The notes under the pieces: generated by a model
Database searches by the model: none
What the model was told of the DNA's origin: nothing
The model's input: only the letters and a program-made list of their open reading frames with translations
Position numbers and translations under genes: made by a program
Origin: Crossaster papposus
Taxonomy: Eukaryota > Echinodermata > Asteroidea > Velatida > Solasteridae
DNA: 64,000 nucleotides
Direction of reading: 5' to 3'
Assembly (NCBI GenBank): GCA_037893245.1
Contig: JBAIAA010000398.1
Coordinates: 930,001-994,000, forward strand
In this document: positions 249 to 62,637 of the stretch, piece by piece
Layout of the letters: each line of letters opens with the position of its first letter
Numbering within the stretch: the first letter of the stretch is position 1

Positions 249-3200
249 CGTCTGTAATGGAAGACTGATGTCACATGGAATTCTTCCTCCGTCTCCGTTT
301 CTAGACCATCAATTACAATCTAAACAGGGACGAAACAAACACACATTCAAATTGATACACTCCGGAATTATTTTCGACATTGTGCGGGATTGTTTTTCAC
401 AAACATCGATTCGAAGACGCGTTCAGGCCGGCATCTGTGGGTAGCCCACCCTGATTTTTCCGGCCTCGCTTGCTGTGAGCTGGTCGCCGACAGATATTTC
501 TGGCCTCGCTCATTACGGGTTTATCTGTCATCCATTCTGAATATCGCAAAACCTTTGGGATATACGAAGTGGTTAACAGTGGTGATCGAGTTGTTAAAAA
601 TAAGGGGGGGGGAAATCTTTCTCCACTGCCCACATTTGACCTTTCTTAGCTCTACAAGTAATTTCTCCTCTTGCTTTCAACAATTTCTACAAGTCACCCA
701 AATTTTCTTCCCCATTTTTTTGACAATTTATCCTTTTCCCAACGCAACCCCAAACCTGTTTACATTGCTGAATCCATAAATCAATATTGTGGTGGACTGG
801 ATAACGATATGTATAGTCAAACCAGCTGCTGCATTTTGTTGGCAAATTAGTTGTGCGTAATAACTCTTCTACGCTACATAACCCTTAAAGTTTTGCAACA
901 CCACTTTTGCCCATAGAGTTAGCACCCTAGCTATGCATTTCTTTGAGATAATCTTCTGAGAAGTATGCAAATATCCCTGCACAATAAGTCAGCTCGGTAT
1001 TCAAACTGCGCATTTCAAGATAAATTTATCATATCGGGCAAAAGCATAGCGGGTACCAGCAATTTTTTTGTTAAAAATGATTTGCGTTTTCAGGTGTTTT
1101 GTGTGTCAAAACTTTTGTTTAAAAAAAGTTTCAATTGTGTTTTTTAATTTACGAAAAACTACACATAATGCATATTTGGTTACCACGTCCGGCCCCCATA
1201 GCCTTGTGTGTATTTATCTGACTCGTTTATCCCAAGAGAAAAATCGTCAAATCTAGATGTGCACATGCGCAGTTGATTGTAATAACGAACTGGCTCATTC
1301 GTTGGTGGTGTGAAGCTCAGGTTAAGCAGGCAAATGCTTCACTGATCTTGGCAATGATGTCTTTTGTGCAGTGACTTTGTGTGGCAGTATTAACACTTTA
1401 TACCCTTCCCACTATTAGAGGGTTAAAAAGGTTCCTAAACAAATATGAATAAGATAAACGAACTTTGGTTTGCATTTAAATACCTGTGCCAGTAAAGTTG
1501 AATCTTCAATGGAAGCGTTCTCTAGAGTCTGGTAAATCTGAATACAGACTGACGTCTGGTCTTTGCCAACATTGAAGTCATACTGCCGACGTATTGGCAA
1601 GTATGAGTACTGTGGAATGACGATTTCTAGGTTGGTTTCTTCAGTTGGATCTAAGACCTGTTGAGTCAAGAGTGGGAGTATTTATCACCTTGTAGATCTG
1701 AATACAGACTGACGTCTGGTCTTTGCCAACATTGAAGTCATACTGCCGACGTATTGGCAAGTATGAATACTGTGGAATGACGATTTCTAGGTTGGTTTCT
1801 TCAGTTGGATCTAAGACCTGTTGAGTCAAGAGTGGGAGTATTTATCACCTTGTAGATCTGAATACAGACTGACGTCTGGTCTTTGCCAACATTGAAGTCA
1901 TACTGCCGACGTATTGGCAAGTATGAATACTGTGGAATGACGATTTCTAGGTTGGTTTCTTCAGTTGGATCTAAGACCTGTTGAGTCAAAAGTGGGAGTA
2001 TTTATCAGCTTGAAGATCTGAATACAGACTGACGTCTGGTCTTTGCCAACATTGAAGTCATACTGCCGACGTATTGGCAAGTATGAATACTGTGGAATGA
2101 CGATTTCTAGGTTGGTTTCTTCAGTTGGATCTAAGACCTGTTGAGTCAAAAGTGGGAGTATTTATCAGCTTGAAGATCTGAATACAGACTGACGTCTGGT
2201 CTTTGCCAACATTGAAGTCATACTGCCGACGTATTGGCAAGTATGAGTACTGTGGAATGACGATTTCTAGGTTGGTTTCTTCAGTTGGATCTAAGACCTG
2301 TTGAGTCAAGAGTGGGAGAAATAATATCTGTACACGAATGCTTGACATTGTATTTATTGCCTGATGAATCCATCAGTGCCAGGAAGTCAACCAGGGTGGT
2401 TTAGGGCGGTACAGCAACGAACTGGTTCATCAACAAGACTTGAGTCACAAGATATCAGTGCACACACTTATTCTTTGATTACAGAAATGCTGAATCTGCA
2501 TTATATTTTAACTACAACATAATAAGAGCTGTAATCGAGTCAGTTGACAAGTCAGTTGACAAGTCAGTTGACAAGTCAGTTGACAAGTCAGTTGACAAGT
2601 CAGTTGACAAGTCAGTTGACAAGTCAGTTGACAAGTCAGTTGACAAGTCAGTTGACAAGTCAGTTGACAAGTCAGTTGACAAGTCAGTTGACAAGTCAGT
2701 TGACAAGTCAGTTGACAAGTCAGTTGACAAGTCAGTTGACAAGTCAGTTGACAAGTCAGTTGACAAGTCAGTTGACAAGTCAGTTGACAAGTCAGTTGAC
2801 AAGTCAGTTGACAAGTCAGTTGACAAGTCAGTTGACAAGTCAGTTGACAAGTCAGTTGACAAGTCAGTTGACAAGTCAGTTGACAAGTCAGTTGACAAGT
2901 CAGTTGACAAGTCAGTTGACAAGTCAGTTGACAAGTCAGTTGACAAGTCAGTTGACAAGTCAGTTGACAAGTCAGTTGACAAGTCAGTTGACAAGTCAGT
3001 TGACAAGTCAGTTGACAAGTCAGTTGACAAGTCAGTTGACAAGTCAGTTGACAAGTCAGTTGACAAGTCAGTTGACAAGTCAGTTGACAAGTCAGTTGAC
3101 AAGTCAGTTGACAAGTCAGTTGACAAGTCAGTTGACAAGTCAGTTGACAAGTCAGTTGACAAGTCAGTTGACAAGTCAGTTGACAAGTCAGTTGACAAGT

Positions 3201-6200: not shown

Positions 6201-9200
6201 CCTCACCACCTGTCTCCGCATACAATTATTCTTACCATTGCACACACAAACATTCATTATTTGTATATTGTTCCTGGCCGATATGCACAGACTCACCTCT
6301 TTAGCAGCTCCTAGTGCAATCACTTCATCTGGACTGTCACCTGTCATCGCATAAAATTATTCTTACCATTGCACACACAAGCATTCATTATTTGTATATT
6401 GTTCCTGGCCGATATGCACAGACTCACCTCTTTAGCAGCTCCTAGTGCAATCACTTCATCTGGACTGTCACCTGTCATCGCATAAAATTATTCTTACCAT
6501 TGCACACACAAGCATTAATTATTTGTATATTGTTCCTGGCCGGTATGCACAGACTCACCTCTTTAGCAGCTCCTAGTGCAATCACTTCATCGGGACTGTC
6601 ACCTGTCATCGCATGAAATTATTCTTACCATTGCACACACAAACATTCATTATTTGTATATTGTTCCTGGCCGGTATGCACAGACTCACCTCTTTAGCAG
6701 CTCCTAGTGCAATCACTTCATCGGGACTGTCACCTGTCATCGCATGAAATTATTCTTACCATTGCACACACAAACATTCATTATTTGTATATTGTTCCTG
6801 GCCGGTATGCACAGACTCACCTCTTTAGCAGCTCCTAGTGCAATCACTTCATCGAGACTGTCACCTGTCATCGCATGAAATTATTCTTACCATTGCACAC
6901 ACAAACATTCATTATTTGTATATTGTTCCTGGCCGGTATGCACAGACTCACCTCTTTAGCAGCTCCTAGTGCAATCACTTCATCTGGACTGTCACCTGTC
7001 ATCGCATAAAATTATTCTTACCATTGCACACACAAGCATTCATTATTTGTATATTGTTCCTGGCCGATATGCACAGACTCACCTCTTTAGCAGCTCCTAA
7101 TGCAATCACTTCATCTGGACTGTCACCTGTCATCGCATGAAATTATTCTTACCATTGCACACAAACATTCATTATTTGTATATTGTTCCTGGCCGGTATG
7201 CACAGACTCACCTCTTTAGCAGCTCCTAGTGCAATCACTTCATCGGGACTGTCACCTGTCATCGCATGAAATTATTCTTACCATTGCACACACAAACATT
7301 CATTATTTGTATATTGTTCCTGGCCGGTATGCACAGACTCACCTCTTTAGCAGCTCCTAGTGCAATCACTTCATCGGGACTGTCACCTGTCATCGCATGA
7401 AATTATTCTTACCATTGCACACAAACATTCATTATTTGTATATTGTTCCTGGCCGATATGCACAGACTCACCTCTTTAGCAGCTCCTAGAGCAATCACTT
7501 CATCTGGACTGTCACCTGTCATCGCATGAAATTATTCTTACCATTGCACACAAACATTCATTATTTGTATATTGTTCCTGGCCGGTATGCACAGACTCAC
7601 CTCTTTAGCAGCTCCTAGTGCAATCACTTCATCGGGACTGTCACCTGTCATCGCATGAAATTATTCTTACCATTGCACACACAAACATTCATTATTTGTA
7701 TATTGTTCCTGGCCGGTATGCACAGACTCACCTCTTTAGCAGCTCCTAGTGCAATCACTTCATCTGGACTGTCACCTGTCATCGCATGAAATTATTCTTA
7801 CCATTGCACACAAACATTCATTATTTGTATATTGTTCCTGGCCGGTATGCACAGACTCACCTCTTTAGCAGCTCCTAATGCAATCACTTCATCTGGACTG
7901 ATGGAATCCAGTATCTCAGTCTTAGGTAAGACGTCTCGAATCATCTGCTGTAGCTTGGGGATACGTGTTGAACCACCAACTAACAAAACCTGCCAAGAAA
8001 TACCAATGTCAATCATTAGAAGTTATACTATATTGCATTACATAACATTGTATTCATAAAAACCTTAGACAGTTTACCCATTTCTATTGGCCGAGAGCCG
8101 GTTTTAAACGGTTGATGAAACACCGGGGCCAGTTTTAAACACTTTTCCGGTCAACCAAATATTTATTGCCTTATTTATTCCTCAAAAAATTATTGAAAAC
8201 CACATGATGAGCTTTCAACCGATAGCAATGGGTTCAAGAGTCTCAAATATTTATTAATAATATTTAACGCTGATGGATATTACAAGTGACTTCACTGATA
8301 ATGCCCCAGATTACGCCCGCCCGTAAATTGTCGCACACTGTTCTCTATAGATTACTGAAAAATAACAAGCATCAGTTTTGCCTGTTTCTCAAATCTATGA
8401 TTACCTTGTTTATTTGTTGTGGTTCTAGATGCGCTGCTGAGATAACTCTCTTGATGAGCTCTAGACTCTGCTGAGCATGGTTGCTAATGAGTGATTCAAA
8501 CTTTACTCTGGGAAGAAAAACATTATTGTTATGCTTTTTATTATCTTGCTTTTTGTAGTTAATTTGCGAAACACATTGTCTATAATCCAGTTTTCATGTG
8601 AAGTTTTGTTTTCCTTATTATAAAATATTTGTCACCTTAGGATGGTAAATTATATCACCCATATTGAGAGTTTTAATATAGAAACAAATGCTTTGCTTGA
8701 GAGAGCCGATTTATCTCAAGCAGCTAATTTCAAGATAAAGTGTGTATCTTACGCAATGCATATGACATACACAACAAATTTGGCGTAGCTGCAGACTGTG
8801 TTAAATAATATAAGCATCTTAGTCGAAGAGAATAACAGCTTTATCACGGCTGTTTGTGTATAATTGTGTGTTTTTTCAGATAGTTGTTTAACCCTAACCC
8901 CCTAAGCTCTCGCACTAGAAAGCATACCAAACCTAACAAACTTCAACAACTGCACACAGGTTCAGTAATTATTGGTACACTGTACTGAACCTAACAGTAC
9001 TAAACCTGCCAAACTCCAACAGTTGAAGTTTGATTGACTTGATGCAGTGATAACTGGCCAGTGGTATTATGTGCTGGACACACCAGGAACTGTGCCGTGA
9101 CCATGTGGGTCACCCACGAATAAATGCCTGTGCATTCTCCAAAACTCTAACATTTTGACAAGTCTCATGCCTTTCTGTCCTGAACCTCACAGAATTCAAC

Positions 9201-12200
9201 AGAGTCTCCCTGGACCTTTGGTACTGAGTCAAACAAAGTCCAACAACAAGTTGTTACGGTTTGGTACCAAACCTGCCAAAAACCTAGCAAAACCTGCAGT
9301 TGGAGTTTGATGGGTTTGGGGTAGTTAGGGTTAATGACCTCGACCCGCCATTTTGAAAATAATTTTGTCCAACTTTTTCAGAATCCTGCGGCAACTCTAA
9401 ATAACAATTTGTCATGAGTAAAATAGCAATTCATTCATTCAAACACAAAGCTGTGATGCAATTAATTGTGGCACAAAGGGACTTGCGGCATTGCGTAACG
9501 TTTTGTGAATTCTGCTGCTGAACATGTTTATAGCTCACAATCACAGGAGATACTTTCCTGATTTTTTTCTTCATCTTATCAACTCCAATAATGTACGGTG
9601 TAGGCCTATTACATTGTATTTTCAATGAATAATACACAAAACCATTTGGCCTGGCAGTTTTGTGGGGTTACAGTGACTAATGGGTCAACAACAAAGGTTT
9701 TCTTGATCTATTATACCAGAAATAAGTAGTAGTGGGTAAGAATAACTGTGATGCTTATATAGCACTTTCCATCGTATTAAAAATCTCAAAGCGCTTTACA
9801 ATTATTATCCTGTTCATCAGGGTTTGGGCCACACAGCAGCCAATATCAGTGCTCACGTGGCCTTGACCCCCAAAGATACCCATTTATACTCCTGGGTGGG
9901 GAGAGGCAATTGTACTTAAGTGTCTTGCTCAAGGGCACAAACACCATGTTCCTGGCAGGGTTTAAACCCACGCACCATCGTACATGAGTCAAACACCTTA
10001 ACCACTGGGCCATGGTATTCCACAAATGGTAACTGCCACGTGAGATCCAAACCTGCATGCTGACCTTGGTAAGCTTAGTGTTTAAGTGGTAAGAAAACTG
10101 CACTAATAAACAAAAGGTCAAAGGTTCGAGTCCCATGAAAGTAAGCTAAGCTTGTGAATATTTTCTTGCAGGCTTTCAGAAAGCATCAGGTATAGGTCTC
10201 TCTCTCAAATGTTGTTATTTCATTTAGATCAGCTTATTTGAGGGTCAACTTGCATAACGCGTATCGGCTGCGCCATTTTGAGCAACGAGCGTGTGTGTGA
10301 TTGAAATATTGTTCACACTGCGTAACACATGCTTGATTGCATAGAATACACACTTGCAGTTCTCTACAAAGATGGCCGTCTTTGAGAGAGATATGGGTGC
10401 CGATTAATTGCTTTGCGAAGGGCAAAGTCCAACATTCAAAGTGAAATTCTAACCTTGAAATGTTAGTGTGGTAGTCAATGCCCTCATACAAGGAATCAAT
10501 GGAGCACTTGGCTGATGGTAATGTCGATAAGATGTGTTTACTGACTTCACATGCACTCTGCAGCTTTATCATTGCTCGGCTATTGTCAGATAAGTTGCAT
10601 TTCCAGGTCCTGTATTTACACAAATAATAATAAAAAGTTCAAGAAAGTTAACACTTTAAGTCAATATGATGTTTTCAAATTCAATTTTTAAAAGAAACAA
10701 AAACCCTGCAACTTAACTACGCCGGTGGAATTTCAGAGTTTACAAGACCTTCTGTTGTATCAAAAGAAAAACACCCCAAACCTATTAAAATCCCAAGGCA
10801 CAGTTCTGGGCAAGAAGTGATGTGAAGGTGTCTCCTCCATATAGCTGAGGTCCGTCTCAGATGCCATCACACATAGCATGCCATTGCTGTCTTGTAAGAC
10901 AGTTACACTCACATATTGAAATCCAAGGCACAGTTCTGGGCAAGGAGTTATGTGAAGGTGTCTCCTCCATCTCTGAGGTCTGTCTCAGATGCCGTCACAG
11001 GTAGCATGCCATTGCTGACTTGTAAGACAGTCACACTTACCTAGTGAAATCAGAGGCGCAGTCCTGGGCAAGGAGTGATGTGAAGGTGTCTCCTCCAAAG
11101 CTGAGGTCTGTCTCAGATGCCATCAGACTTATCATGCCCTTGCTGACTTGTAGACAGTTACACTCACCGATTAAAATCCAAGGCACAGTTCTGGGCAAGG
11201 AGTGATGTGAAGGTGTCTCCTCCAAAGCTGAGGTCTGTCTCAGATGCCATCAGACTTATCATGCCCTTGCTGACTTGTAGACAGTTACACTCACCGATTA
11301 AAATCCAAGGCACAGTTCTGGGCAAGGAGTGATGTGAAGGTGTCTCTTCAAAGCTGGGGTCTGTCTCAGATGCCATCAGACTTATCATGCCCTTGCTGAC
11401 TTGTAGACAGTTGCACTCACCGATTGAAATCAAAGGCACAGTTCTGGGCAAGGAGTGATGTGAAGGTGTCTCCTCTATAGCTGAGGTCTGTCTCAGATGC
11501 CGTCACACATAGCATGCCATTGCTGACTTGTAAGACCGTCACACTTACCTATTGAAATCCGAGGCGCAGTTCTGGGCAAGGAGTGATGTGAAGGTGTCTC
11601 CACCAAAGCTAAGGTCTGTCTCAGATGCCATCAGACTTATCATGCCCTTGCTGACTTGTAGACAGTTACACTCACCGATTAAAATCCAAGGCACAGTTCT
11701 GGGCAAGGAGTGATGTGAAGGTGTCTCCTCTATAGCTGAGGTCTGTTTCAGATGCCTTCAAACGTAGTATGCCATTGCTGACTTGTAAGACAGTCACACT
11801 CACTTATTGAAATCCAACACAGTTCTAGGCAAGGAGTGATGTGAAGGTGTCTCCACCAAAGCTAAGGTCTGTCTCAGACGCCATCAGACTTATGTCATTG
11901 CTGACTTGTAAGACAGTTACACTCACCTATTGAAATCCAAGGCACAGTTCTGGGCAAGGAGTGATGTGAAGGTGTCTCCTCCATAGCTGAGGTCTGTCTC
12001 AGATGCCATCACACGTAGAATGCCATTGCTGACTTGTATGACAGTCACACTCAGACTGGTGCCCCCCAGTCGATAGACAAGCACATTGCTGCAGGAACAT
12101 GCAGTAAGAAAAAGCATTAGTGATGAGCCATTTGCAGATTAAATTTAAATAACATCTGGTACACACACCGACTTGCTCGAAATGCTTGGCACATTTAAAC

Positions 12201-17386: not shown

Positions 17387-17419
<33 letters not shown>

Positions 17420-37064: not shown

Positions 37065-37281
37065 ATTGGACGATTTTCCGATTACAGGACAGAGAAAGTA
37101 AAGCAAGTATAAAGTACCTCTCGAACAAACTGATATTGCTTACCCAAAAAACCAGGAGAAACGAGGATGTTCAGAGAGTCAAACACCCCAAGAAGGGCGC
37201 GGTTTTTGAATTTCCCGCCACTGTCAAAAAAACACAAAAAAACCACGTCCGTCCACTCTGCTCGCGTGACCAAGCCACACA

Positions 37282-38283: not shown

Positions 38284-38314
<31 letters not shown>

Positions 38315-45400: not shown

Positions 45401-48400
45401 AAGTAAGCTTTTGAACAATAATTTGGTTGGTTAAGGTACATACTTTCTCTTTAATACTTTTCAGAGCACTTGCTGGAAATTGTTTATTTTTTTTGCTGTA
45501 TATTATTTTAGTATCATTTGTTTAGTATCACTTTTCTGCTTAACATATTTAATAGTTAATGCTTGTAGGAATAACAGTCCCCAATCCATCAATATCAATA
45601 TGATTTGTACACACACTATTAGGTTATAGTGTTAAACACAATGGGTCTCAAGCATTAACAATTCTGGTCAATCTAAGTTTGTGTTTTGTCATTTCAGGTT
45701 TTGTATCTGCAACCGAGCGATAGTTATAGCATCCACTGGCCAATCAGACGAGGTTTGTTAAATCTTCACAAAGGAGTCGGTGGTTTGCTGACGAGCGTGC
45801 TGCAAGACTTAGAGACTATTTGGAGCACGGTCCTTGAGCAGAAACTGAACATACCCCTGAAAGACCTGAAAGTAAGTGAGTATACCCATTATAAAGAAGA
45901 AAGAAAACAACAAATTAATAAAGTAAATGAGTACTCGTTATGAATGCTGTGTTTGCATTGACAGCAGTTAAGCAGTCGCGCTTTCAAGGCTTGTACATTT
46001 TGTGTTTTTGCATATTTGTTATTACAGGTTACTGCGGTGTTTAGGTGTGCTTTCATGCCATATTGCCTTGTGGGTTGACATTATTAAACATGAAATAAGG
46101 ATTTAGTCATGAAATCTATCTTCATGTATTTCTATGACATGAATTGTAAGAAGTATACCCGAATAATCAATTTAAAAAAAATTTCATTTCGCACGCAGTG
46201 AAAGAAGAATTTGAAGAATGGAACAAAATCAATTTCAGTACACAGTTATCATTTGTCACTTGTAAGATGATTTTATTCAATCACTATTTCTGGAGTGTCG
46301 TGGTCGGGCGGTTAAGAACTCGGTTTTTTGTTCCGCAGAGCGTGGGTTCGAGTCCCTGTGTCGACACGTGTGTCCTTAAGCAAGGCAATTAAACCACTAT
46401 TGCTTTGTCCTTCGGATGGGACGTAAAGCTGTAGGTCCCGTGCGTTGTGTAATGCACGTAAAAGAACCCAGTAACACTCTTCGCTAAGAGAAGGGGTTTG
46501 CCCCGGTGTTCCTGGCAGCGCCTCGGAATAGGCAACTAGATAGACGGCGCTTTACAAATGCATGATGATCATCATCATCTGTACGTAGTCCATTTGTACT
46601 CTGTCCATCCATACGACATTCAAACATGTGTCATTTTGGTAAAAAATTGGGAAAAAATGGTCCGGTGCAAACTTCAGTTGCATTCAATCTTGAATCATAA
46701 ATGCAATATAGAAACTTCCATGGTGATATTAAAGGTCATATACTGAGGTCAAAGGTCATTTGAGGTCAAGTTGTAAAATAGGGGTTGTCGAAAAAGCAGA
46801 CAAGATTTGTTGTTCAAGAACGATCGTTTTAAAATCACCTTCATAAAATTCCTTTGTAAGTCAGATTTTGTTCATTAAAAATCATCAGTTTGGTGTGGAT
46901 TGCATTTTCGTTAATACATTTTGGGGAATTTAGCAATATTTCCTTTTCTTCTAACTCGTTTAAACAATTTGTTTACACAGCATTACCGTGCTGTTCTGGT
47001 GATACCAGACATCTATCATCGGCCTCATGTCAAGGAACTCATGAACCTCCTGCTGTTGAGGATGGGGTTTGGGGCTGCCATCGTACACCAGGTAAGCTGT
47101 AAATATAAGCAACTAACTTTAACCTAACCCTAACATAACCGCCTGCAGTTGAGGATGGGGTTTGGGGCTGCCATCGTACACCAGGTAAGCTGTAAATATA
47201 AGCAACTAACTTTAACCTAACCCTAACATAACCGCCTGCAGTTGAGGATGGGGTTTGGGGCTGCCATCGTACACCAGGTAAGCTGTAAATATAAGCAACT
47301 AACTTTAACCTAACCCTAACATAACCGCCTGCAGTTGAGGATGGGGTTTGGAGCTGCCATCGTACACCAGGTAAGCTGTAAATATAAGCAACTAACTTTA
47401 ACCTAACCCTAACATAACCGCCTGCAGTTGAGGATGGGGTTTGGGGCTGCCATCGTACACCAGGTAAGCTGTAAATATAAGCAACTAACTTTAACCTAAC
47501 CCTAACATAACCGCCTGCAGTTGAGGATGGGGTTTGGGGCTGCCATCGTACACCAGGTAAGCTGTAAATATAAGCAACTAACTTTAACCTAACCCTAACA
47601 TAACCGCCTGCAGTTGAGGATGGGGTTTGGAGCTGCCATCGTACACCAGGTAAGCTGTAAATATAAGCAACTAACTTTAACCTAACCCTAACATAACCGC
47701 CTGCAGTTGAGGATGGGGTTTGGGGCTGCCATCGTACACCAGGTAAGCTGTAAATATAAGCAACTAACTTTAACCTAACCCTAACATAACCGCCTGCAGT
47801 TGAGGATGGGGTTTGGGGCTGCCATCGTACACGAGGTCAGCAGGGTGTAATAGGCAGAGCACTTTGATTAATATGCAGGTCAGGGTCATGTGTGCAGCAA
47901 CTAACTTCTTGGTTGATTTTGGGAGTCAAATCTTAGATGATGGTGTTGTCCATGCAGGGCTAGTTGTAGAAACCTTACTTACCTAATTCTGCAAAATTCT
48001 CTTCCTGGTTGATTGTTTATTTGTATATTACAGGAGTCGGTCTTAGCCACCTATGGTAGTGGACTCAGCAGTGCGTGTGTTGTGGATGTGGGTGACCAGA
48101 AGACCAGCGTCTGCTGTGTTGAAGATGGCTTGTCCCACAGAAATACCAGGTACATGCACCTGTCGTGTCATGGGAGTGCCTGATGTTAATAGTAAACAAA
48201 GGCAATGTTTATCATACTAGCTGGGGGATTTCTTTCACTTGTCATGTCATTGGAGTGCGTTATATTAGCAAAATCCTTAACAATATTTATTTATCAATAT
48301 TTATTTAGGCAATTATTTATTTTTCCAAGGAGAGTTTTCTAAGCAGTTTGCTCATCTTTTTATATCCTTTATACCGATTCCTCGTACATGCCCATTATTT

Positions 48401-51400
48401 GTAAATTTATATTTCTATGAGGGAATATCAATATTGACCAATGAAATAATTGCACTGAATCATAAATATTGATGAAGTGTAATAATAGTTAATGGTGACG
48501 TTCCTTTTATTCAGATTGTGCATGACCTATGGGGGTAGTGACGTCACACGTTGTTTCACGTGGTTGTTGGAGAGGGTGTTCTTCCCTTACCAAGAATGCC
48601 AGCCAGCTAAGACGATGGATGCTCTGCTACTTCTTGAACTCAAGGAAACATTCTGTCATCTGGACCAGGTCAAATATATAATCTGTATTTTCTTTCAAAG
48701 GGGCCAGGAAGGGTTCGACATAGCCTATTGGTTATAATCAGAGGGGCATGACATTTTGATCAGGGCATATTTTTCTAAAATGCTTACACGGTGAGGCCCG
48801 AAGACGTGAAAACCTTTAGTTAGAACAAAACCGTGAAAAGTAAACAATCCTGACAATATCCCCCATTGTCACTTTTTAAATACGTTAGAAGGGGGCCTCT
48901 TGTACTTTTAACGATTTTCGTTCCAACTAAATGTTTTCATGTCTTTAATTGGGCCTCGCATGCTACATGTATATCTTGAGATTAATGAAAGGTTTTGCCC
49001 GATGAGTTATATTCAATTATATCTTTAGTTTAGCATTTCTGAATTTGTATAGACATAGTTGAATATAAACAGGTCTTCCCTTTGAAATTTTCTTGTTGGG
49101 TTTTTATATTGTTCATCAGCAAGTAGTGAAATAATTAACTCTCGCACAGACATAATATTCAAAAGGATATCTTTTGAAGTACGTGTTAATTGTATATCCA
49201 GTGTGCTTCAGATTTATGTTGGGGGGTTGTCTGCGGCTGTGGCTATTTTCTGTACTGTACTAATGACAAAATGTTCAAGTCGTACGTAGCCTTAAAATAA
49301 CACAATTACCCGTCCTGCATTGCATGTCTCTCCTGACTTTATTTTTCAATGCAAACTTTCCAACCAGGACCTAGATGGAGTCCAGCTACTAGACTTCCAT
49401 GTCCGGTACCCAGACCATCCCACCCTGATGTACCAGCTCAAGCTTGGTGATGAGACCCTGCAGGCCCCCATGGGACTCTTCTACCCGCTCATCTTTGGCG
49501 TCATCGGAGAGAAGATGACTTACACGCAGCAGCGCAACCAGGGAGATTCAGAAGATGTGCATGATGAGCTGTATCTGCTGCAGACGCAGAAAGAGCAACA
49601 ACAGGTGAGGATGTGTGGGGATTAAAGGGGGATTAGAGGATGTGCATGATGAGCTGTACCTGCTGCAGGTACAGTAAGAGCAACAGCAGGTGAGGATGTG
49701 TGGGGATTAAAGGGGGGGATTAGTGGATTTGCACGATGAGCTGTACCTGCTGCAGACGCAGAGAGAGCAACAGCAGGTGAGGATGTGTGGGGATTAAAGG
49801 GGGGATTAGAGGATGTGCACGATGAGCTGTATCTGCTGCAGACACATGCAGAAAAAGCAACAGCAGGTGAGGATGTGTGGGGATTGAAGAGGGGATTAGA
49901 GGATGTGCACGATGAGCTGTATCTGCTGCAGACGCAGAAAGAGCAACAGCAGGTGAGGATGTGTGGGGATTAAAGGGGGGATTAGAGGATGTGCACGATG
50001 AGCTGTATCTGCTGCAGACACATGCAGAAAGAGCAACAGCAGGTGAGGATGTGTGGGGATTTAAGGGGGATTAGAGGATGAGCGCGATGAGCTGTACCTG
50101 CTGCAGACGCAGAGAGAGCAACAGCAGGTGAGGATGTGTGGGGTTAGTGTAAATGTTGGGCATTTGTCAGCAATCTGTTTGAATGTCTCTCCCTGTGGTC
50201 TTCCTCAACTCCCTCTTCTTAACATTTGTTGCACACAATTTGTCATGGAATCTGCATGAACTGTGGATTACAGCACAATGGCGAACAGTGTTATAAGGAA
50301 CATGCACAACATTTTGCACAAAACTGTAGATTAACCCTAACTCCCTACACAACAAAGGAAGTTGGAGGATTTTGAAGGAATTGTATTGTTCAATAACAAT
50401 GGTGAGGGAGTTAGGGTTAAAGACTACATTTAGAGTCGCAGCTTTATCAACATCTTTTTCACTATACTCCATCTACAGTCAAACAAAAAATCTGGCACCG
50501 TCCCCAACTCGGATTCCACCAATCAGAATGTGGATGGCATGATGGCATCGTCGGGAAGTCAGTTGTCTAATTCCCCAACGAGCCAATCACAGAGTGACCT
50601 GATTCAGGCGGAGGAAGCCCCTCCCCCAACCATCTCCAGACGAATCTCCACTTCCCAGTCACTAGACAAGCCGCTAGGAGTAGACCAGGCCATACTGCAT
50701 AGTATCGACTGCTGCTGTAAGTCTAAACCTCATTTGACTAGGCCATACCACACAGTATCGACTGCTGCTGTAAGTCCAAACCTCATTAGACTAGGCCATA
50801 CCACACAGTATCGACTGCTGCTGTAAGTCCAAACCTCATTAGACTAGGCCATACCACACAGTATCGACTGCTGCTGTAATTCTAAACCTCACTAGGTCCG
50901 GCCATACCACACAGTATCGACTGCTGCTGTAATTCTAAACCTCATTAGGTCCGGCCATACTGCATAGTATTGACTGCTAAAAGTCCAAATCTCATTAGAC
51001 CATGTTATACTGCACAGTATCGACTGCTGTTGTAATTCTAAACCTCATTAGGTCCGGCCATACTGCATAGTATTGACTGCTAAAAGTCCAAACCTCATTA
51101 GACCAGGCCATACTACACAGTGCAGGATCGACTGCTGCTGGTAGTCCAAACCTCATTAGACCATGCCATATCGCACAGTATTAACTGCTGCTGTAAGTCC
51201 AAACCTCATTAGACCATGCCATACCGCACAGTGCAGGATCGATTGCTGCTGGTAGTCCAAACCTCATTAGACCATGCCATACCACACAGTGCAGGATCGA
51301 CTGCTGCTGTAAGTCCAAACCTCATTAGACCATGCCATACCACACAGTATCGACTGCTGCTGTAAGTCCAAACCTCATTAGACCATGCCATACCACACAG

Positions 51401-52969
51401 TATCGACTGCTGCTGCAAGTCCAAACCTCATTAGACCATGCCATACCACACAGTATCGACTGCTGCTGGTAGTCCAAACCTCATTAGACCATGCCATACC
51501 ACACAGTATCGACTGCTGCTGGTAGTCCAAACCTCATTAGACCATGCCATACCACACAGTATCGACTGCTGCTGGTAGTCCAAACCTCATTAGACCATGC
51601 CATACCACACAGTATCGACTGCTGCTGGTAGTCCAAACCTCATTAGACCATGCCATACCACACAGTATCGACTGCTGCTGTAAGTCCAAACCTCATTAGA
51701 CCATGCCATACCACACAGTATCGACTGCTGCTGTAAGTCCAAACCTCATTAGACCATGCCATATCACACAGTGCAGGATCGACTGCTGCTGTAAGTCCAA
51801 ACCTCATTAGACCATGCCATACCACACAGTATCGACTGCTGCTGTAAGTCCAAACCTTATTAGGTCAGGCCATATCGCACAGGATTGATTGTAAGTCCAT
51901 TTAAAGCCCGCCACATGATGAGCTCTCGACCAATGGGAATGGGTAAACTGTCTAAGGTATTTATGAATGAATAATAATAAGTGACACATTTTTACACAAT
52001 ACAGGAAAGTCTCTAATTGCCAATATCTGGTATATTTTTGTTGTACAGCATCGGACGAAACAAAAAAGAAGATGTACAGTTGTATATTGGTGGTTGGTGG
52101 TGGACTGAGTCATTTGCAGGGAGCGGCAGACATGCTTCAGCATCGTATACAGACTAAGATGCCACCGTCCTTCCGTAGAGTGGTGGACAAAGTAGAAGTC
52201 ATATGTAAATCAAAGGTGGGTACAGTAATGAGAACAGCATGGTTATTTGTTTTCCAGTATGTGCGCTAAAAGTACATTCATAACCTACTGATTTTGTGTG
52301 TGTAGCCATAAACCTAATGTACATAGCAATCCCTAAACGTACCTCACAATACGTAAGACGTAAACACAGAATGGTCTCTTGAAGTAGTTTAGGGATTGCT
52401 ATGGAATTCAGGTTTATGGCTACACAAAACAATCCAGTTTGTGGGCTAGAAATATATTCATTACCTACTATAAAATGCAATACATGTGTTGTTGGTGTTT
52501 AAACTTGGCACACACATTTCCCTCAGTTTGAACCTTTTTTGTGTGCAACTCCTTCCCCAGCAGCGTGGGGAAGGGGTTTATACAAACTATTGTCTCCACC
52601 CCCCTCAATCCTGCTCCCCCACCCCGCAGCCCCCTCCCCCACCCCGCAGCCCCCTCCCCCACCCCTATTGTCCCCTTATGGTGAAAACCCTGTCTACTCC
52701 ACTGTCGTCACCCCTCCCTCCCTCCCTCAGAAAAAAGCGTTACGCACACCCCTCCCTCGAACTATGAACCGCCCCTTTCTCCAGAAGTTTACCAAACCAG
52801 AATCCGATGAATGTGTTTCTCCTAGGATCTTGATCCGCGAATAACATGCTGGAAGGGAGGCACAGTCCTCGCATGCCTGGACACGGCGCAAGAGTTATGG
52901 ATCAGGCAGAAAGAATGGAGGAAACATGGACTCAAAGTATTAAGGGAAAGGTCACCATTTGTGTGGTAG
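42484..52969 (+). CDS. ACTR8: actin-related protein 8 (INO80 complex), N-terminal exon not found
   Basis: Eleven exons: 42484-42657, 43572-43682, 45023-45127, 45698-45871, 46981-47091, 48034-48149, 48515-48668, 49368-49604, 50479-50716, 52049-52215, 52826-52969 (stop TAG 52967). Phases join into 576 residues; human ACTR8 is 624, so some 45 N-terminal residues are missing. Diagnostic stretches: VVVIHPGSYWLRIGRATD, HWPIRRGLLNLH, VLVIPDIYHRPHVKEL, ATYGSGLSS, VVDVGDQKTSVCCVEDG, ETFCHLDQDLDGVQ, ILHSIDCC, LVVGGGL and the C-terminal LRERSPFVW. Arp8 is a nuclear actin-fold subunit of the INO80 remodeller that binds nucleosomes and linker DNA. Exon 9 encodes the divergent low-complexity insert. Four of the eleven exons carry tandem arrays of their own 3' edge. 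The donor after 48668 (GTCAAA) is weak. A possible first exon upstream could not be fixed. Confidence 0.94.
43042..43478. mobile_element. family M1 element, complete
   Basis: TTAACCCTAACCCTACCTA at the left; the inverse CTAGGGGGTTAGGGTTAA at the right; 437 bp; contains a 14-bp-arm hairpin near its left end. It lies in ACTR8 between the first and second recognised exons. Confidence 0.75.
44656..44950 (+). repeat. interstitial telomere-like array (TTAGGGG)n
   Basis: About 40 units with a 7-bp period, perfect in the middle, with TTACGGG and TTACAGG variants at the right end. About 50 bp on the left (44570-44620) and on the right (44945-44995) are copies of each other (GAGTTG.TTGTTGAT.CTCTGCT). 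It ends just before ACTR8 exon 45023-45127. Confidence 0.95.
46294..46562 (+). mobile_element. tRNA-derived SINE
   Basis: Head GTGGTCGGGCGGTTAAG with B-box GGGTTCGAGTCCC, body CCTTAAGCAAGGCAATTAAA, GTTCCTGGCAGCGCC, 3' end GACGGCGCTTTACAAATGC. The same family is present inverted at 63062-63370. Confidence 0.8.
47092..47835 (+). repeat. exon-boundary array A4 (ACTR8 exon 5 donor side), 93-bp unit
   Basis: Exon ends fall at 47091, 47184, 47277, 47370, 47463, 47556, 47649, 47742 and 47835, exactly 93 bp apart. Each repeat is 57 bp of intron (GTAAGC donor, CTAAC branch-like words, ending GCCTGCAG) followed by the last 36 nt (12 codons) of exon 5. Copies are almost identical, with only a GGGGCT/GGAGCT variant. 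The last copy ends CACGAG|GTCAGC, unlike the others. Confidence 0.96.
49605..50127 (+). repeat. exon-boundary array A5 (ACTR8 exon 8 donor side), 85-90 bp unit
   Basis: Seven copies including the true exon; donors CAG|GTGAGG follow 49604, 49689, 49776, 49866, 49952, 50042 and 50127. Each unit has the last 50-60 nt of the exon (around GATGAGCTGTATCTGCTGCA) and a G-rich intron piece GGGGGGATTAGAGGATG that resembles the exon's GGAGATTCAGAAGATG. Length differences are small indels. Confidence 0.93.
50331..50420. mobile_element. short family M1 element (90 bp)
   Basis: TTAACCCTAACTCCCT and its inverse AGGGAGTTAGGGTTAA enclose about 58 bp. It lies in the ACTR8 intron before exon 50479-50716. Confidence 0.7.
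50717..51895 (+). repeat. exon-boundary array A6 (ACTR8 exon 9 donor side), ~53-bp unit, ~22 copies
   Basis: Unit: GTAAGTCCAAACCTCATTAG, ACCAT, then the exon end GCCATACCACACAG and TATCGACTGCTGCT. The donor GTAAGT is kept in many copies and changed to GGTAGT or GTAATT in others. The true exon end reads CATAGTATCG where the copies read CACAGTATCG. Local blocks of identical variants (for example GGTAGT copies at 51457-51640) point to repeated local duplication. Confidence 0.95.
52290..52433. mobile_element. inverted-repeat element
   Basis: Arms GTGTAGCCATAAACCT and TAGCAATCCCTAAAC mirrored as GTTTAGGGATTGCTA and AGGTTTATGGCTACAC. About 140 bp, in the last ACTR8 intron. Confidence 0.75.
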
Positions 52970-53660
52970 GGGAGGCATATTCCTAGCTTGTCTGGACACA
53001 GTTCTAGCTTGCCTGGACACGAGGCAACAGTTATGGATCAGGCAGACAGAATGCGGAAAACATGGACTCATAGTACTAAGGGAAAGGTCACCATTTGTGT
53101 GGTAGGGGAGGCACGATCCTAGCATGTCTGGACACGGCGCAAGAGTTATGGATCAGGCAGACAGAATGCGGGAAACATGGACTCAAAGTACTGAGGGAAA
53201 GATCGCCCTTTGTGTGGTAGGGGAGGCACAGTCCTAGCTTGCCTGGACACGACGCAACAGTTATGGATCAGGCAGATAGAATGCGGGAAACATGGACTCA
53301 AAGTACTGAGGGAAAGATCGCCCTTTGTGTGGTAGGGGAGGCACAGTCCTAGCTTGCCTGGACACGACGCAACAGTTATGGATCAGGCAGATAGAATGCG
53401 GGAAACATGGACTCAAAGTACTGAGGGAAAGATCGCCCTTTGTGTGGTAGGAGAGGCACGGTCCTAGCTTGCCTGGACACGACGCAACAGTTATGGATCA
53501 TCAGGCAGAGAGAATGGAGGGAACATGAACTCAAAGTACTAAGGGAAAGGTCACCATTCGTGTGGTACGGTCATAGTTTGCCTGGACACGGCGCAAGAGT
53601 TATGGATCATCAGGCAGAGAGAATGAAGGAAACATGGACTCAAAGTACTGAGGGAAGGGT
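52970..53660 (+). repeat. exon-boundary array A7 (ACTR8 last exon), ~115-bp unit
   Basis: About seven copies of the terminal exon from GGGAGGCACAGTCCT to its stop (GTGTGGTAG), placed after the true stop at 52967-52969. Three adjacent units are exactly 115 bp (53213, 53328, 53443). Several copies carry internal stops (GTCCTAGC in place of GTCCTCGC), so only the first is coding. The joint is between GGGAGGCACAGTCC in the exon and GGGGAGGCATATTCC after the stop. Confidence 0.94.
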
Positions 53661-54544: not shown

Positions 54545-54772
54545 GGGTTGAAATTAGTCTTGATCCAAGACCAAGCTAACCGTTCGTTTGTTCTGCGGCG
54601 CGCCGTCCGTATATATTCGGGCTTATTGAGGGCGCCCTTAATTATCACCAGATTCGTTCCCCAACTTGTTGGCGATAATTAAGGGCGCCCTCAATAAGCC
54701 CAGATATACGGACGGCGCGCCGCGAAACAAACGAACAGCTAGCTTGGTCTTGGATCAAGACTAGGTTGAAAT
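54545..54772. mobile_element. fold-back element, ~100-bp arms
   Basis: Arms containing GTCTTGATCCAAGACCAAGC, GGCGCGCCGTCCGTATAT and TTGAGGGCGCCCTTAATTAT pair in inverted order around a loop of about 22 nt (about 54651-54672). Few mismatches. Confidence 0.92.
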
Positions 54773-54889
54773 TTGTTAGAGCCAATTTCCCCTTGATTTA
54801 TCGTGAACCAAACATATTAAGGGGTCTGTGAAAACACCCTTAGAAAAGTCCTTTGTTTAGCTATCCGTGAAAATCTGGTTGAAATAAAA

Positions 54890-57947: not shown

Positions 57948-58360
57948 TAACCCTAACCCTCCTATTTGGCTACAAAACCTTCCTGCTTTAATAATGTAAA
58001 TGTAGGTCCATAAGGTCAAAAGTCCTCAATATTTGTGGTCACTGAATGCAGCCCGATTCAGCTGGCATTGTTCACAGGGACGATCTCACAATGTTTCATA
58101 GTTGGCAGTTTCTTGTGTTGTACAAATGTAGGATGAGTGCAGCAAGTAATACCATAGATGTTTAAACCTGATGCTATGGTTAAAAAATTGTTTAGGTGCC
58201 AACTTGCATGAGCCGAGAGGACCTTTGACATCTTTAAATGACTTCAGGTTTCAGAAGTAACACATTGTAAGCATTCTTAGGACCAATGTTATTTTCAACT
58301 CGATGTGCACAGACCATGCATGTATTTTGCACTTTGTTGGGTGTGGAAGGGTTAGGGTTA
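57948..58360. mobile_element. family M1-like element
   Basis: TAACCCTAACCCTCCTA on the left and GGAAGGGTTAGGGTTA on the right, 413 bp. The interior was not compared base by base with the other members. Confidence 0.5.
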
Positions 58361-59042
58361 CTGTTCAAGTTAATATCACGTATTGTGTCCACTTTTAATT
58401 TACATGTGAATGTTTTATCATTGTAACCATGTGCAAATAGAAATACACCAGGAATAACAGCCTAGTTATTGGTTCAACCAAGAAGTAGGGTTTTACGTAT
58501 ACCACTCAAATATAGTTAATCACACACATTATAGATGGACTAGGACTTAACTTTACTATTTACCGGGTAGGACCAGATTACTACATTTGCTGTTTTCCCT
58601 CCATATTACACCGATAGTTAGAAACTATTAGAATAGCCATTGAAAATTAAGGACCTAAAAAACAAACTCCTGGCATTTTGACAACTTTGCACTCCGTTTG
58701 TGCACAGAATTAAAGTTAAGTCAAAAATCAACTAGTCTATCAATGCTTCTGAATATCATGCTGTACTGTTCCTGGTTAAAACTAACCCTGCTGAATCCAA
58801 CAGAATCAACCGGATCCAACCAGTTGACATTTCAATTGGATTTAGCAGGCAAGTCTTTGGATATATTCTGGAACGCATTCAGAATGTCATTCTGTTAGAT
58901 CCAACAGCACCCCCCAATTTAAAAAAAAAAAATTAAAATAAATAAGACACAGTTGGACTCTGTTGGATTTAGCAGGCAAGTCATTTGATATGTTCAGGTA
59001 CTCAACAACTAGAGTTGGACTGTGTTGGATTGAGCAGTAAAG
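58361..59042. other. intergenic, no gene seen
   Basis: Carries repeated TCCAACAGAATC / TTGGATTTAGCAGGCAAGTC words in both orientations (58795-59040), probably a small inverted-repeat element that I could not delimit. Confidence 0.4.
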
Positions 59043-59750
59043 CAGGCCTGGAATTACAAAATTTTTAGGGCAAGGCCACTTTGGCCTTGGAGTATTCAAA
59101 ATTTGTGAGGGCACCAAGGCCAGTAGAAAGGGCACCAAGGCCAAAATTTGAAAATAAAAAAGAAGTCCAATTTCTTGCATTTGGCAGCAGAGTGTTCTAG
59201 TTCACCTTTAACAGTCCGCTTCAAACGCTCTTTTCGTGGCATTGTTACTCTATTAAATTCTTGTAGTTTAATCCGAAAAGTTTTGGACGGTGACGGGATT
59301 CATTCACTAAAAACGTTTTTCTAGTCATGCGGTGCAACAATTCCACCAGAAGAGGGCGTTCAAACAACAGAGAGCGCCCTCTGTTGGTCAATGTTTTTTA
59401 TTTTAGACTGGTCCCTTGTTTAAAGACGTCGGGTGTTCGTGTACAACGGGTGCCGAGAGAGTCGCGAATGCGTTGAACGTAAACAATTTACGCTAGTGCA
59501 ACTTCCTTTGACTCGTTCGAGCGGATTGCGCTGGATATACATTAAAACACGTCACAAGCACAAGATGCATCGTAGGCTGAAAACTAACACAAGTAAATAT
59601 TTAACTTTCATAAAAAGGGCACGACGGCCAACAGGGGAAAAGGGCACGACATTATGGCCGTGAAAAGGGTATTTTTTTGAGGGGCACCACGGCCAGTTGC
59701 AAGGGCATCGACGGCACTGGCCGTCGTGGCCGCCGTGTAATTCGAGGCCT
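59043..59750. mobile_element. non-autonomous DNA transposon with AGGCCTSGAATTAC ends
   Basis: Left AGGCCTGGAATTAC, right GTAATTCGAGGCCT (13 of 14 inverted). Subterminal GGGCAC(C/G)A(A/C)GGCC repeats occur at both ends. Ends of this sort are usual in hAT elements, but no clean 8-bp duplication is visible here. Confidence 0.65.
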
Positions 59751-59980
59751 TTACTTATAGGTCTCGGTTGCACTCTGTTGGATTTGAGATTACGGTTAAA
59801 GAAGGGCGCTGCAACAATGCCATTTAAGGTCTACCAAGTCCAACACTTGAAAAATCACATTTATTGAAGTATTTCCATGTACTTTGATCTAAAAATGTAA
59901 TATTGGAATACATGAAGTAGGAATGCGTAAACTTTAGGAATTATGTTTGATTCACTATCCAAAATGCAGCACTCTCTTCA

Positions 59981-60546
59981 TTTTAAAGGGAAACTCCACC
60001 CATAGTTTATAATTGCATAATGTTAAAGAGTGTCAATTGTCAACCCTTTTGTGTACGGCATAGTGTATACACAATGTGTACTATATGTGAAATTTGGGCT
60101 CAAAATCATACGGAGAAGGACCTGATGCCATAATTACTAGCTCACAGATTTTCTATTATTCTCAGAAAATACAAAAATAAACGATAGTTTGTGGCGCGTC
60201 AAGTCGATATTCTGCACAGAAATGCAATACATGTACTCGCAATAGTCGGGCGCCGTACAACATACGTCTGCATAATGTAGTTGGCCGCGTCAAGGTGGGA
60301 TACCAGTGCGAACAACAGGCAATAAAGCGATGTGCATTGAGGTGCAGCCACTACGTCATAATTTTCCGGGCGAGGCGGGAAATTTGAACAATATGGCCGC
60401 GCCCTGATTATATTATATCGTGAATATAATAAGCGCGTGTGTCGTTCTCGATAACAAATCAAAACAAATTCTTTGCGGAGTCAGTATGTTACCATAATCG
60501 TTTAGACTAGGTAAAATATTAGTGAGCCTGGAATTTCCCTTTAAAA
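59981..60546. mobile_element. non-autonomous element with AAAGGGAAA ends
   Basis: TTTTAAAGGGAAACTCCA at the left and its inverse TGGAATTTCCCTTTAAAA at the right (17 of 18). The 566-bp interior is non-coding. Both ends abut a TTAA, which could be a target duplication, though this is uncertain. Confidence 0.7.
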
Positions 60547-60876
60547 TACGACCTACATGTATTGACACGATTCAAGTTTGCCCACTCTGTTGGTACTAAA
60601 TGATAAAAATGAGTACATGTACATTCATTAATGAGACAGCGTTTTTACAATAATTTTAAAAACGTTTTTTTTCTTTCAAATATTATAATGTATTATAAGA
60701 TTTGGGTAGAAACCCACAGTAATGGCTAAGGAGATCACACCTACTAGGCGTGTTGGATTATTTCTCTGTTATTAATTAGATTTCATGGTTAATTGACCGT
60801 TATGGGTATTACAATTCCTTTCATGAAGCTAGAATTCATAATGCCACAATCTTATTATTTTTTTTCACTGCAATTC

Positions 60877-62637
60877 TCACCTTCCTCATCCACCTCCGGC
60901 TGGGGGTGGGGCTCTTGGTGCTCCACCTCTGCCTCCAAAGCCTCCCATTCTCCTACTGGGGCCTGGTGGCGGGCCTAGTCCTCTCCTAATAGGCAAGAAA
61001 ATAAACACACTTGGTTGAACTAGCCCTAACCTTTGGGCCTGGTGGTGGGCCTAACCATCTCCTAATGGGCAAGAAAATGAACACACTTTGTTGATTGAAC
61101 CCTAACTCTTGGGCCTGGTGGCGGGCCTAGTCCTCTGCTAATGGGGAAGAAAATAAACATACTTGGTTGAACTAGCCCTAACCCTTAGGCCTGGTGGTGG
61201 GCCTAGCCCTCTCCTAACGGTCAAAAAAACAAACACACTTTGTTGAACTAACCCTAACCCTTGGGCCTGGTACATGTAGTTGGCCTAACGCTCTCCTAAT
61301 GGGGAAGAAAATAAACACACTTTGTCGAACGAACCCCGACTCTTGGGCCTGGTGATTGCTCTTTCAGTTACATTGGTTGCCTACAGGGTTGTCACCAGAC
61401 CATTTATAGAGCCGGGTAATTTGTGCCATCGATCCGCGACCTGACGTGAATTATCTCCTAATCACTTTTTATTATACCCCCAAATACCGCGAGCACAGCG
61501 CTCTCAACGTTCAATAATACGACCTATTCAGTGTAGGGACCTGTAGCCAGTCTATACATGAGAGTAGTCTGGTGCCGTGTTTTTAGTAGTAAACAACTCA
61601 ACTACTTTGCTATGGTTGCCATGCCACGTTCGGTTCTCTACTGCAGGAAGGTAAGTACATGTACTTCGGTGCGCGATGCGTGGCAACCCATGGCAAGCAG
61701 CATTATGAAAACCAGTGTGCGGGAGCGCGCGTACGCTACGTACAATTTTACTTTCATAATGGGTCACAACGTTAACGTTAACACTTTCGAATACATAGTA
61801 CATGTATAATTAAAATGGAAAGGGGAACAACGGCCAAGTGGCCGTAAGGTACGTGTTTTTTTGAAGGGGCTTCACGGCAATTGGCTGGGGCATCACGGCA
61901 ATTGGCTGGGGCATCACGGCAATTGGCTGGGGCATCGCGGCAAGGTTGAGGCCTGAGTTAATTTGAGCCGGGCGGTAAGGCTCAACTTGACCTTGAGTAC
62001 CGGGCGGACATTTTGGGAGGTGGGTAGCACCGCCCGGCGCCGCCCGGCGTGGTGACAACCCTGGTTGCCTATACAATTTCGTATACATAAATCCTTCTGT
62101 TAATCTTCAAGGCTATTCATGATCTTGCTCCCAGATAATGCTAAAAACCATAGGTCACTGATAATTTGCACAAGCTGCTCCAAGCTTATGGAACCAGCTA
62201 CCACATGAGGTTTAGTCTGTTCAGTCCCTTTTGGTTTTTAAGAATAAGCTTAAGACTTTTTTTTTTACAAAGGCATTCGTGTAAAATTGTATTATTGTAT
62301 ATTTTACATTTTGGTAAATTTCGTTGTAAAAATCATTGTTTGACATAACTTTTTTATATAATTAATATTTTTATATTATTAGACTAATGTTTTCTTTTAA
62401 TTAGTATTATAAATATTTTAACAATTTTAGGGCTTGTAATGCGCATTAGGACATATTATGGTATCTGCACAAAATAAATACAATTATTTTGCTCCACTGT
62501 TTCACAGCTAATAAAGTAATAGACATGGTAGATGCTGGTAAGACTTAAATACACAGATCTGACAAGATGTCAACATTCTTGGCACTTACCCTCCTCCACC
62601 TCCTGCTTGGTAGTTTGATGTGTGACCACGCCCCTTG
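60877..62637 (-). CDS. SELENOK: selenoprotein K, 3' exons, with in-frame Sec TGA
   Basis: Terminal exon 60985-60877 encodes RGLGPPPGPSRRMGGFGG, then RGGAPRAPPPAGGG, then TGA (60888-60886), GGA AGG and a TGA stop (60879-60877). This matches the human SelK C-terminus, which has RRMG and ends AGGUGR, with selenocysteine at the same place. The preceding exon 62637-62590 (48 nt, KGRGHTSNYQAGGGGG) joins in phase. A 19-nt microexon at 62929-62911 with a strong acceptor and donor may precede it (low confidence). The N-terminal and membrane-spanning exons are not in the window. SelK is a small ER-membrane protein with roles in ER-associated degradation and palmitoylation with DHHC6. The 3' UTR should hold a SECIS element, which I could not identify with confidence. 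It is convergent with ACTR8. Confidence 0.85.
60986..61350 (-). repeat. exon-boundary array A8 (SELENOK last exon acceptor side), ~76-bp unit
   Basis: Six copies of the acceptor and first ~27 nt of the SELENOK terminal exon (on the plus strand GGGCCTGGTGG...CTCTCCTAATGGGCAAG), near 60959, 61034, 61111, 61188, 61263 and 61343. Each copy keeps a TTAG acceptor-like end, or a close variant, on the minus strand. A CCCTAACCC word lies inside each unit. The next element (hAT-like, 61384) starts 34 bp further on. Confidence 0.85.
61384..62063. mobile_element. non-autonomous hAT-like transposon with 8-bp target duplication
   Basis: Perfect 14-bp ends CAGGGTTGTCACCA / TGGTGACAACCCTG, flanked by GTTGCCTA at 61376-61383 and 62064-62071. 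The 8-bp duplication and CAGGG start fit the hAT superfamily. The interior has tandem TCACGGCAATTGGCTGGGGCA units near the right end and no transposase. It lies in the SELENOK intron. Confidence 0.88.

Follow-up and report, generated by a model that had tools for sequence, protein, structure and literature searches.

Tandem arrays of the mirage minisatellite type at eight exon edges in a 64-kb stretch of the sea star Crossaster papposus

In a stretch of 64,000 nucleotides from the sea star Crossaster papposus (GenBank assembly GCA_037893245.1, contig JBAIAA010000398.1, positions 930,001 to 994,000; here called the window, with position 1 as its first letter), eight coding exons of the three genes HSPA14, ACTR8 and SELENOK are each adjoined by a tandem array made from their own edge. 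Minisatellites of a similar design have been described in lancelets under the name 'mirage', and the passages retrieved from the two papers list Adh3, the globin genes BflGb6 and BflGb9, TnC and PGBD5 as examples (PMC3087553, PMC3902484). We propose, with a probability of roughly 0.8, that the sea star arrays are mirage-type minisatellites that arose by duplication across short homologies, grew by unequal exchange and consist of neutral copies. A first-pass annotation made from the letters of this DNA had already used the mirage name, which is indeed the published one for the lancelet genes, and had described eight exons in three genes with 5 to about 22 copies each and the intact exon at one end of the array. 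Tandem Repeats Finder, run on the whole window, recovers all eight arrays, A1 to A8, and the complete live exon lies at one end in 8 of 8.

Every array adjoins one edge of one coding exon. A scan with edge motifs counted the copies that carry the edge and gave 5, 13, 9, 9, 7, 22, 6 and 5 for A1 to A8, with an extra degenerate terminal copy in A3, A6 and A7. Three arrays belong to HSPA14 on the minus strand. A1 (1532-2318) is an acceptor array with five edges and a unit of 160 bases (about 126-129 coding plus about 31 intron); its live copy is exon 12 (1484..1657, acceptor edge 1657), which was placed by tblastn with the Patiria miniata protein P0121 and has AG/GT flanks. A2 (6207-7900), a donor array with a unit of 131 and spacings of 129 and 131, adjoins exon 10 (7861..7989, donor edge 7861), and 13 of its 13 edges read GAG|GTGAGT. 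A3 (10780-12053, unit 127, nine edges) is made wholly of sequence from exon 7 (11927..12088, donor AATAG|GTGAGT), and the donor is rebuilt at each joint. Four arrays lie in ACTR8 on the plus strand, whose exons carry the numbering of this analysis. The donor array A4 (47044-47841, unit 93) follows exon 5 (46981..47091, donor CAG|GTAAGC) and has nine edges, the final one diverged to GAG|GTCAGC; the donor array A5 (49540-50143, unit 86-88, spacings 85-90, seven edges) follows exon 8 (49368..49604, donor CAG|GTGAGG); and the donor array A6 (50681-51882, unit 53, spacings 50, 53 and 58) follows exon 9 (50479..50716, donor GCT|GTAAGT) with 22 edges and a degenerate end. A7 (52855..53660) adjoins the last exon (52826..52969, stop codon TAG at 52967-52969) and has six edges and a degenerate end; Tandem Repeats Finder reports it as rows at 52861-53660, and the wholly coding unit of 115 bases (52855-52969) was traced back to 52855. 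The eighth, A8 (60959-61354, minus strand), is an acceptor array of five edges with a unit of 76 (27 coding plus 49 intron) at the last exon of SELENOK (60877..60985, acceptor edge 60985), which has an in-frame UGA near its end.

A mirage is defined by a unit that spans an exon/intron boundary of its own gene. This is the case for A1, A2, A4, A5, A6 and A8, whose units combine 27 to about 129 coding bases with about 15 to 90 intron bases, and it is not the case for A3 and A7, whose units are wholly coding. The annotation had described every unit as an exon edge plus adjoining noncoding sequence, and had assigned A2 to A6 to donor sites, A1 and A8 to acceptor sites and A7 to the stop codon, each spanned by the unit. 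This description holds for the six boundary-spanning arrays and has to be amended for A3 and A7, where the unit ends at the edge.

These two arrays behave like mirages yet form a variant. The A3 unit matches the interior of HSPA14 exon 7 over 126 aligned bases, and the 'intron' after the donor of each copy, GTGAGTGTGACTGTC, is exon sequence (TGAGTGTGACTGTC) behind AATAG|G. A donor is made at the joint, where AATAG|G is fused to the exon-interior TGAGTG. The final A3 copy ends with AATAG| and is followed by GTTTGGGG, which, judged from its sequence, is probably the ancestral donor. If so, the duplication would have swapped a poor donor for GTGAGT, and all sequence behind the first joint would have been turned into intron. 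The A7 unit is the final 115 bases of ACTR8 including the TAG, with the joint directly 3' of the stop codon; as the unit ends with TAG, its copies lie downstream of the stop codon. A3 and A7 show a route by which a duplication can survive although it lies entirely within coding sequence. The A3 copies also hold information on the history of the exon. All nine extra copies lack an ATA (I) of the live exon and have TTA (L) in five cases and one lost base in four, and L is found at this site in three other sea stars. An ATT (I) of the live exon is ATG in 7 of the 9 extra copies, and the same three species have M. At a third site, a serine codon (TCG, TCT) is present in 2 of the 9 copies and TTG in six copies and the live exon; here P. 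miniata and Acanthaster have S and Asterias has A. These codon comparisons suggest that some copies are fossils of an older exon 7 and that others carry its newer state.

The joints between units were read by eye and without statistics. Readable homology ranges from 1 base in A3 to 10 bases in A8. The A8 joint has CACCAGGCCC common to exon and intron, and the A7 joint has GGGAGGCA, the outer side of which is not readable, so that it is possibly just the unit. The other shared or near-shared bases are CAGAT in A1, CAG in A2, a G run in A5 and one T in A3, and the homologies in A4 and A6 are not surely readable. As far as sequence can tell, the joints fit slippage or microhomology end joining. 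The earlier suggestion of duplication across short imperfect repeats agrees with most readable joints (1-10 bases). Telomere-like AACCCTAAC filler was considered as a sign of break repair and discarded, since it is present in A4 and A8 but also occurs 11 times elsewhere. The motif itself is abundant, with 21 occurrences in the window (for example at 8890, 24555, 47126-47785, 50333 and 61098) versus 0.59 expected, 10 of them in A4 and A8. A further array, with the 7-base unit GGGGTTA, is located at 44654-44948.

From these features, the birth of an array may be pictured as follows. Slippage or end joining, using some 1-10 bases of homology, would duplicate in tandem a short stretch that starts within an exon and extends to its edge or just beyond. 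The array would then grow and be reshuffled by unequal exchange, as the interspersed variant copies and higher-order repeats suggest; dimers of 255 bases inside A3 (10780-12053) and of 176 bases inside A5 (49540-50143) are taken as a sign of unequal exchange of whole units. The gene would survive this, since the one copy attached to the remainder of the exon is kept intact and all others become intron or 3' untranslated region. Copies of a unit that crosses a splice site would carry that site along; where the unit is wholly coding, the first joint would provide the signal that ends the exon, either as a new donor (A3) or by its place behind the stop codon (A7).

The divergence of the copies gives no indication that their coding part is protected. 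Mean pairwise differences in the coding and the intron part, respectively, are 0.005 and 0.043 in A1, 0.027 and 0.016 in A2, 0.009 and 0.000 in A4, 0.070 and 0.039 in A5, 0.185 and 0.126 in A6, and 0.148 and 0.160 in A8. The coding part is therefore the more diverged one in 4 of the 6 arrays and the less diverged one in 2, and conservation of the coding part as a sign of use is not seen in these six arrays. Continued reseeding of each array by its live exon (a master-copy model) found no clear support either: in A1, A2, A4 and A5 the copies are closer to each other than to the live exon, which is not so in A3, A6 and A8. Most likely, short-homology duplication and unequal exchange have left the arrays behind as neutral by-products. 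The copies look neutral, with no shown function.

The strength of the association with exon edges was examined in two ways. At either end of every coding exon, the outermost 50 bases (19 in a single short exon) were matched to the adjoining outside sequence, up to 1200 bases of it, with 60 shuffles as background. In this test, 8 of 68 coding-exon edges scored between z 13.8 and 41.9 and the remaining 60 did not exceed z 2.6, with no decayed intermediates among them. The latter include all edges of MANF, UPF0739 and PLCXD, genes that the first-pass annotation had correctly given as free of arrays. Because there are no middle scores among the 68 edges, the arrays are either of recent origin or kept similar, and the test sees no trace of those that were lost. 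A control took 2508 fifty-base pieces from across the window and matched each to the next 1200 bases; the threshold was reached by 383 of them, 14 of these outside the listed arrays and minisatellites. Two of the 14 adjoin the array at 44654, and the rest are, by eye, short, AT-rich or dispersed pairs. The exon table used for the edge and placement tests had 4 of 59 scored splice sites 1-2 bases off (the donors of HSPA14 exon 8 and SELENOK exon 2, the acceptors of MANF exon 2 and ACTR8 exon 1); a later scan for decoy pairs used a corrected table, and MANF exon 2, one base off, was left out.

Secondly, placement was compared with chance. From 40 Tandem Repeats Finder rows we dropped those with fewer than three copies (among them one at 54882, behind ACTR8, with 70 bases, 2.0 copies and 76%), overlapping rows of one array and the mono-, tri-, 5- and 6-base rows. 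Arrays with a unit of at least 50 bases and at least three copies are then at exon edges in 8 of 8 cases, and none was found by Tandem Repeats Finder elsewhere in the window. In the null models each array was collapsed to one unit; a segment of unit length contains an exon edge in 6-18% of the window, and A3 and A7, with units ending at the edge, were counted as crossing. The probability of 8 of 8 is 3.6e-8 for the whole window, 3.3e-6 for the six gene bodies and 4.8e-6 for the three carrier genes; that of at least 7 of 8 is 2.3e-6, 1.1e-4 and 1.5e-4, respectively. The strictest null (carrier genes, matched for guanine-plus-cytosine (GC) content, wholly coding segments removed) gives 8.4e-5 for 8 of 8. 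Without A3 and A7, the product for the six remaining arrays, worked out by hand, is 1.8e-6 for the whole window and 5.2e-4 under the strictest null. With all units of at least 20 bases, 8 of 11 arrays are at edges (4.1e-7 whole window, 4.6e-5 carrier genes), and with all units 8 of 16 (1.4e-6 and 1.4e-4). The expectation that edge arrays exceed random placement is thus borne out within this window, at P 3.6e-8 to 5.2e-4. GC content was rejected as the whole cause: the founder units have 41-50%, the window 39% and the exons 47%, and the GC-matched null still gives the two strictest values above.

Two observations weigh against the arrays being neutral by-products. Neutral placement leaves the lack of long-unit arrays of at least three copies in introns unexplained, and no mapped edge of A2, A3, A4 or A5 has lost its GT. 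The latter is weak evidence of use, because the copies in A2, A4 and A5 are highly alike. A wider reading, which we hold to be less probable than not, is that exon edges are the preferred birth places of long-unit arrays in sea stars and lancelets through a process tied to exons, such as transcription- or splicing-linked breakage, and that purely intronic long-unit arrays are rare. A duplication wholly in an exon would be rescued if its joint makes a splice site or follows a stop codon, and the copies would be local fossils and possibly conversion donors for the live exon.

We consider it unlikely that the overlap is one of chance, with minisatellites arising anywhere in genes and an exon-rich window picked for its edge cases. 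The window was chosen after the fact, for looking striking, and the windows of a genome, which we estimate at several thousand, could use up the strictest probabilities (8.4e-5 and 5.2e-4). Short-unit minisatellites do occur inside introns (14176, 21383, 2538 and 3386), in agreement with the annotation, which had listed ordinary minisatellites there. Chance has to contend with P values of 3.6e-8 for uniform placement and 4.8e-6 in the carrier genes, which stay at or below 1.4e-4 with shorter units added, and with long-unit arrays of at least three copies being nowhere else in the window. Two of the intronic minisatellites lie side by side in HSPA14 intron 11 (window 2538-4261), with a 12-base unit repeated 67 times and an 11-base unit repeated 80 times, and degenerate sequence related to them extends, by eye, to about 4600.

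An active role in splicing, in which spare sites tune the recognition of the live exon or copies serve as extra exons, seems very unlikely to us, even though there are several observations in its favor. Copy sites are about as good as the live ones in A2, A4, A5 and A8 and partly in A3. Pairs of acceptor and donor above the 25th percentile of live sites number 8 in 6.3 kb of arrays versus 1 in 18.5 kb of array-free introns; the 8 pairs (3 in A2, 1 in A3 and 4 in A8) are not independent. Two A1 copies (1977-1849 and 1817-1689) form in-frame, stop-free segments of 129 nucleotides followed by AAG|gtgata, with acceptor scores of 9.5 and 8.6 (live, 8.6) and a score of 7.2 for AAG|gtgata (live exon 12 donor, 7.1). 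Moreover, passages of a Caenorhabditis elegans study link an intronic minisatellite statistically to complex alternative splicing (PMC4039745). However, when an exon was joined to its neighbor using every mapped copy edge, degenerate terminal copies excluded, all 63 of 63 shifted boundaries ran into a premature stop in the same or the next exon (A1, 4; A2, 12; A3, 8; A4, 8; A5, 6; A6, 21; A8, 4), and the live edge was open in all seven splice arrays. The sites of A6 decay, with the GT gone at 9 of 22 edges (two AA, six GG and one GC); its 21 tested edges include these nine. With a matrix trained on array-free exons, no strong acceptor is found in A1, A4, A5 and A6 and no strong donor in A5 and A6, and the two A1 acceptors, like the live one, fall below the 25th percentile. 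An acceptor at the A4 joint (CCTGCAG|TTG) was tried and rejected; it is outside the 14 best listed AG sites of A4, which is without a strong acceptor. The coding part of the copies, as described above, shows no constraint, and lancelet mirages are reported to leave splicing undisturbed, with reverse transcription-PCR (RT-PCR) suggesting regular splicing of the globin mirages in the passages found (PMC3087553). The pattern points to copies that are probably silent in splicing.

An assembly artefact is hardly credible, for although the copies of A1, A2 and A4 are nearly identical (97-98% matches), which makes their copy number less sure and possibly wrong, and a lancelet globin mirage is described as having looked misassembled in a draft genome (PMC3087553), those of A3, A5, A6, A7 and A8 differ by about 4-20%, with insertions and deletions, and the exon-anchored design is present in all eight arrays.

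The comparison with lancelets is drawn from passages of the published texts. In BflGb6 the 3' end of an intron is duplicated together with the 5' part of the exon, i.e., an acceptor mirage, and BflGb9 has a donor mirage; repeat number was 6 versus 3 between two haplotypes, and the work includes a model of intron gain (PMC3087553). At splice sites of PGBD5 there are repeats of 60 and 108 bases, and the paper cites Adh and TnC (PMC3902484). The claim that the sea star extends mirages to acceptors cannot be upheld, as BflGb6 was already published. As in lancelets, the sea star has tandem copies spanning a donor or acceptor boundary, several with splice signals, and the unit lengths are in the same range (10-72, 60, 108 and 150-160 in lancelets; 53-160 here). 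In contrast to the lancelet cases, the arrays occur in a sea star, eight of them in 64 kb, with up to about 22 copies, two wholly coding units and one array at a stop codon. Reports on lancelet mirages include length polymorphism, somatic instability and RT-PCR, whereas the sea star arrays are known from one sequence alone.

Boundary repeats that do not bear the name mirage are known in human and potato. In an intron-gain case in the potato RNA-dependent RNA polymerase gene (PMC4974935), as here, splice signals are supplied or rebuilt by a duplication that crosses an exon edge or lies next to it; A3 is the instance in the sea star, with a donor created at the joint and what was exon turned into intron. 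The potato case involves one duplication, compared to 5 to about 22 copies in the sea star, where an intron already present is lengthened at one end, with no new intron position seen. Internal tandem repeats of human segmental duplications (PMC2812944) likewise show minisatellite variation at exon-intron boundaries that alters gene structure; there, transcripts that retain the repeat within the exon are common, whereas the conserved sea star protein requires that the copies be left out. Mirages so named outside cephalochordates were not found among the matches listed, in a search that covered few subscription papers and in which the word also turned up in unopened pine, ascidian and spider papers. 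A mirage at a stop codon was not found in literature of the same coverage, and the passages found of a paper on echinoderm donor sites mention no such repeat. A1, A2, A4, A5, A6 and A8 are here classed as mirages in a new phylum, with A3 and A7 as a variant, and the C. papposus arrays may be the first mirage case outside cephalochordates.

The genes were placed by tblastn with sea star proteins, by Pfam and by protein search. Along the window they are HSPA14, MANF, a DUF4504 gene (which we take to be UPF0739), a PLCXD-like gene, a long interspersed nuclear element (LINE), ACTR8 and the end of SELENOK. On the minus strand, 13 exons of HSPA14 were seen, and the gene was identified by tblastn with P. 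miniata protein P0121. The protein assembled from the live edges, which are our choice, aligns without gaps to that of P. miniata, the closest relative found in this comparison, and is identical at 446 of 488 residues (91%), compared to 395 of 488 (81%) for Acanthaster planci and 341 of 488 for Asterias rubens. These identities put the window near Patiria among sea stars and apart from amphioxus. For ACTR8, identified by protein search and tblastn with Acanthaster protein P0001 and also matching PDB 4fo0, 11 coding exons were mapped, and there is probably an additional small first coding exon not placed among them. SELENOK (minus strand) was recognized with P. miniata protein P0241 (91%, E 1e-20). 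No selenocysteine insertion sequence (SECIS) element had an Rfam match at the gathering threshold in the whole window, and none fitting was found at E up to 10 in 57500-61000, where a hand-made pattern gave loose matches. MANF and the DUF4504 gene were identified through Pfam, and the PLCXD-like gene through a weak PI-PLC-X match (E 5.6e-4), which is under the Pfam cut-off. No extra intron inside the array-bearing exons is needed to match sea star proteins, a comparison with the protein sequences of relatives, which do not include intron positions. The LINE (window 31721-37139, minus strand) has an open reading frame with a zinc knuckle and endonuclease, reverse transcriptase and RNase H domains; its endonuclease and reverse transcriptase parts occupy two frames that overlap, meeting near 34048-34090. 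A dispersed repeat of 213 bases occurs at 30617-30829 and 43232-43444 (97% identical, 12.6 kb apart), and a long inverted repeat around gcgcgccgtccgtatat at 54553-54760 has, by eye, the look of a fold-back or miniature inverted-repeat transposable element.

Exon-edge arrays can confuse gene prediction. They can also provide a visible first step to moved splice sites and gained introns, and A3 keeps older versions of a coding exon next to the live one. If mirages are truly present in both sea stars and lancelets, they are no cephalochordate oddity, and exon-edge repeats of this class, which have received little study, may be common among the genomes of deuterostomes.

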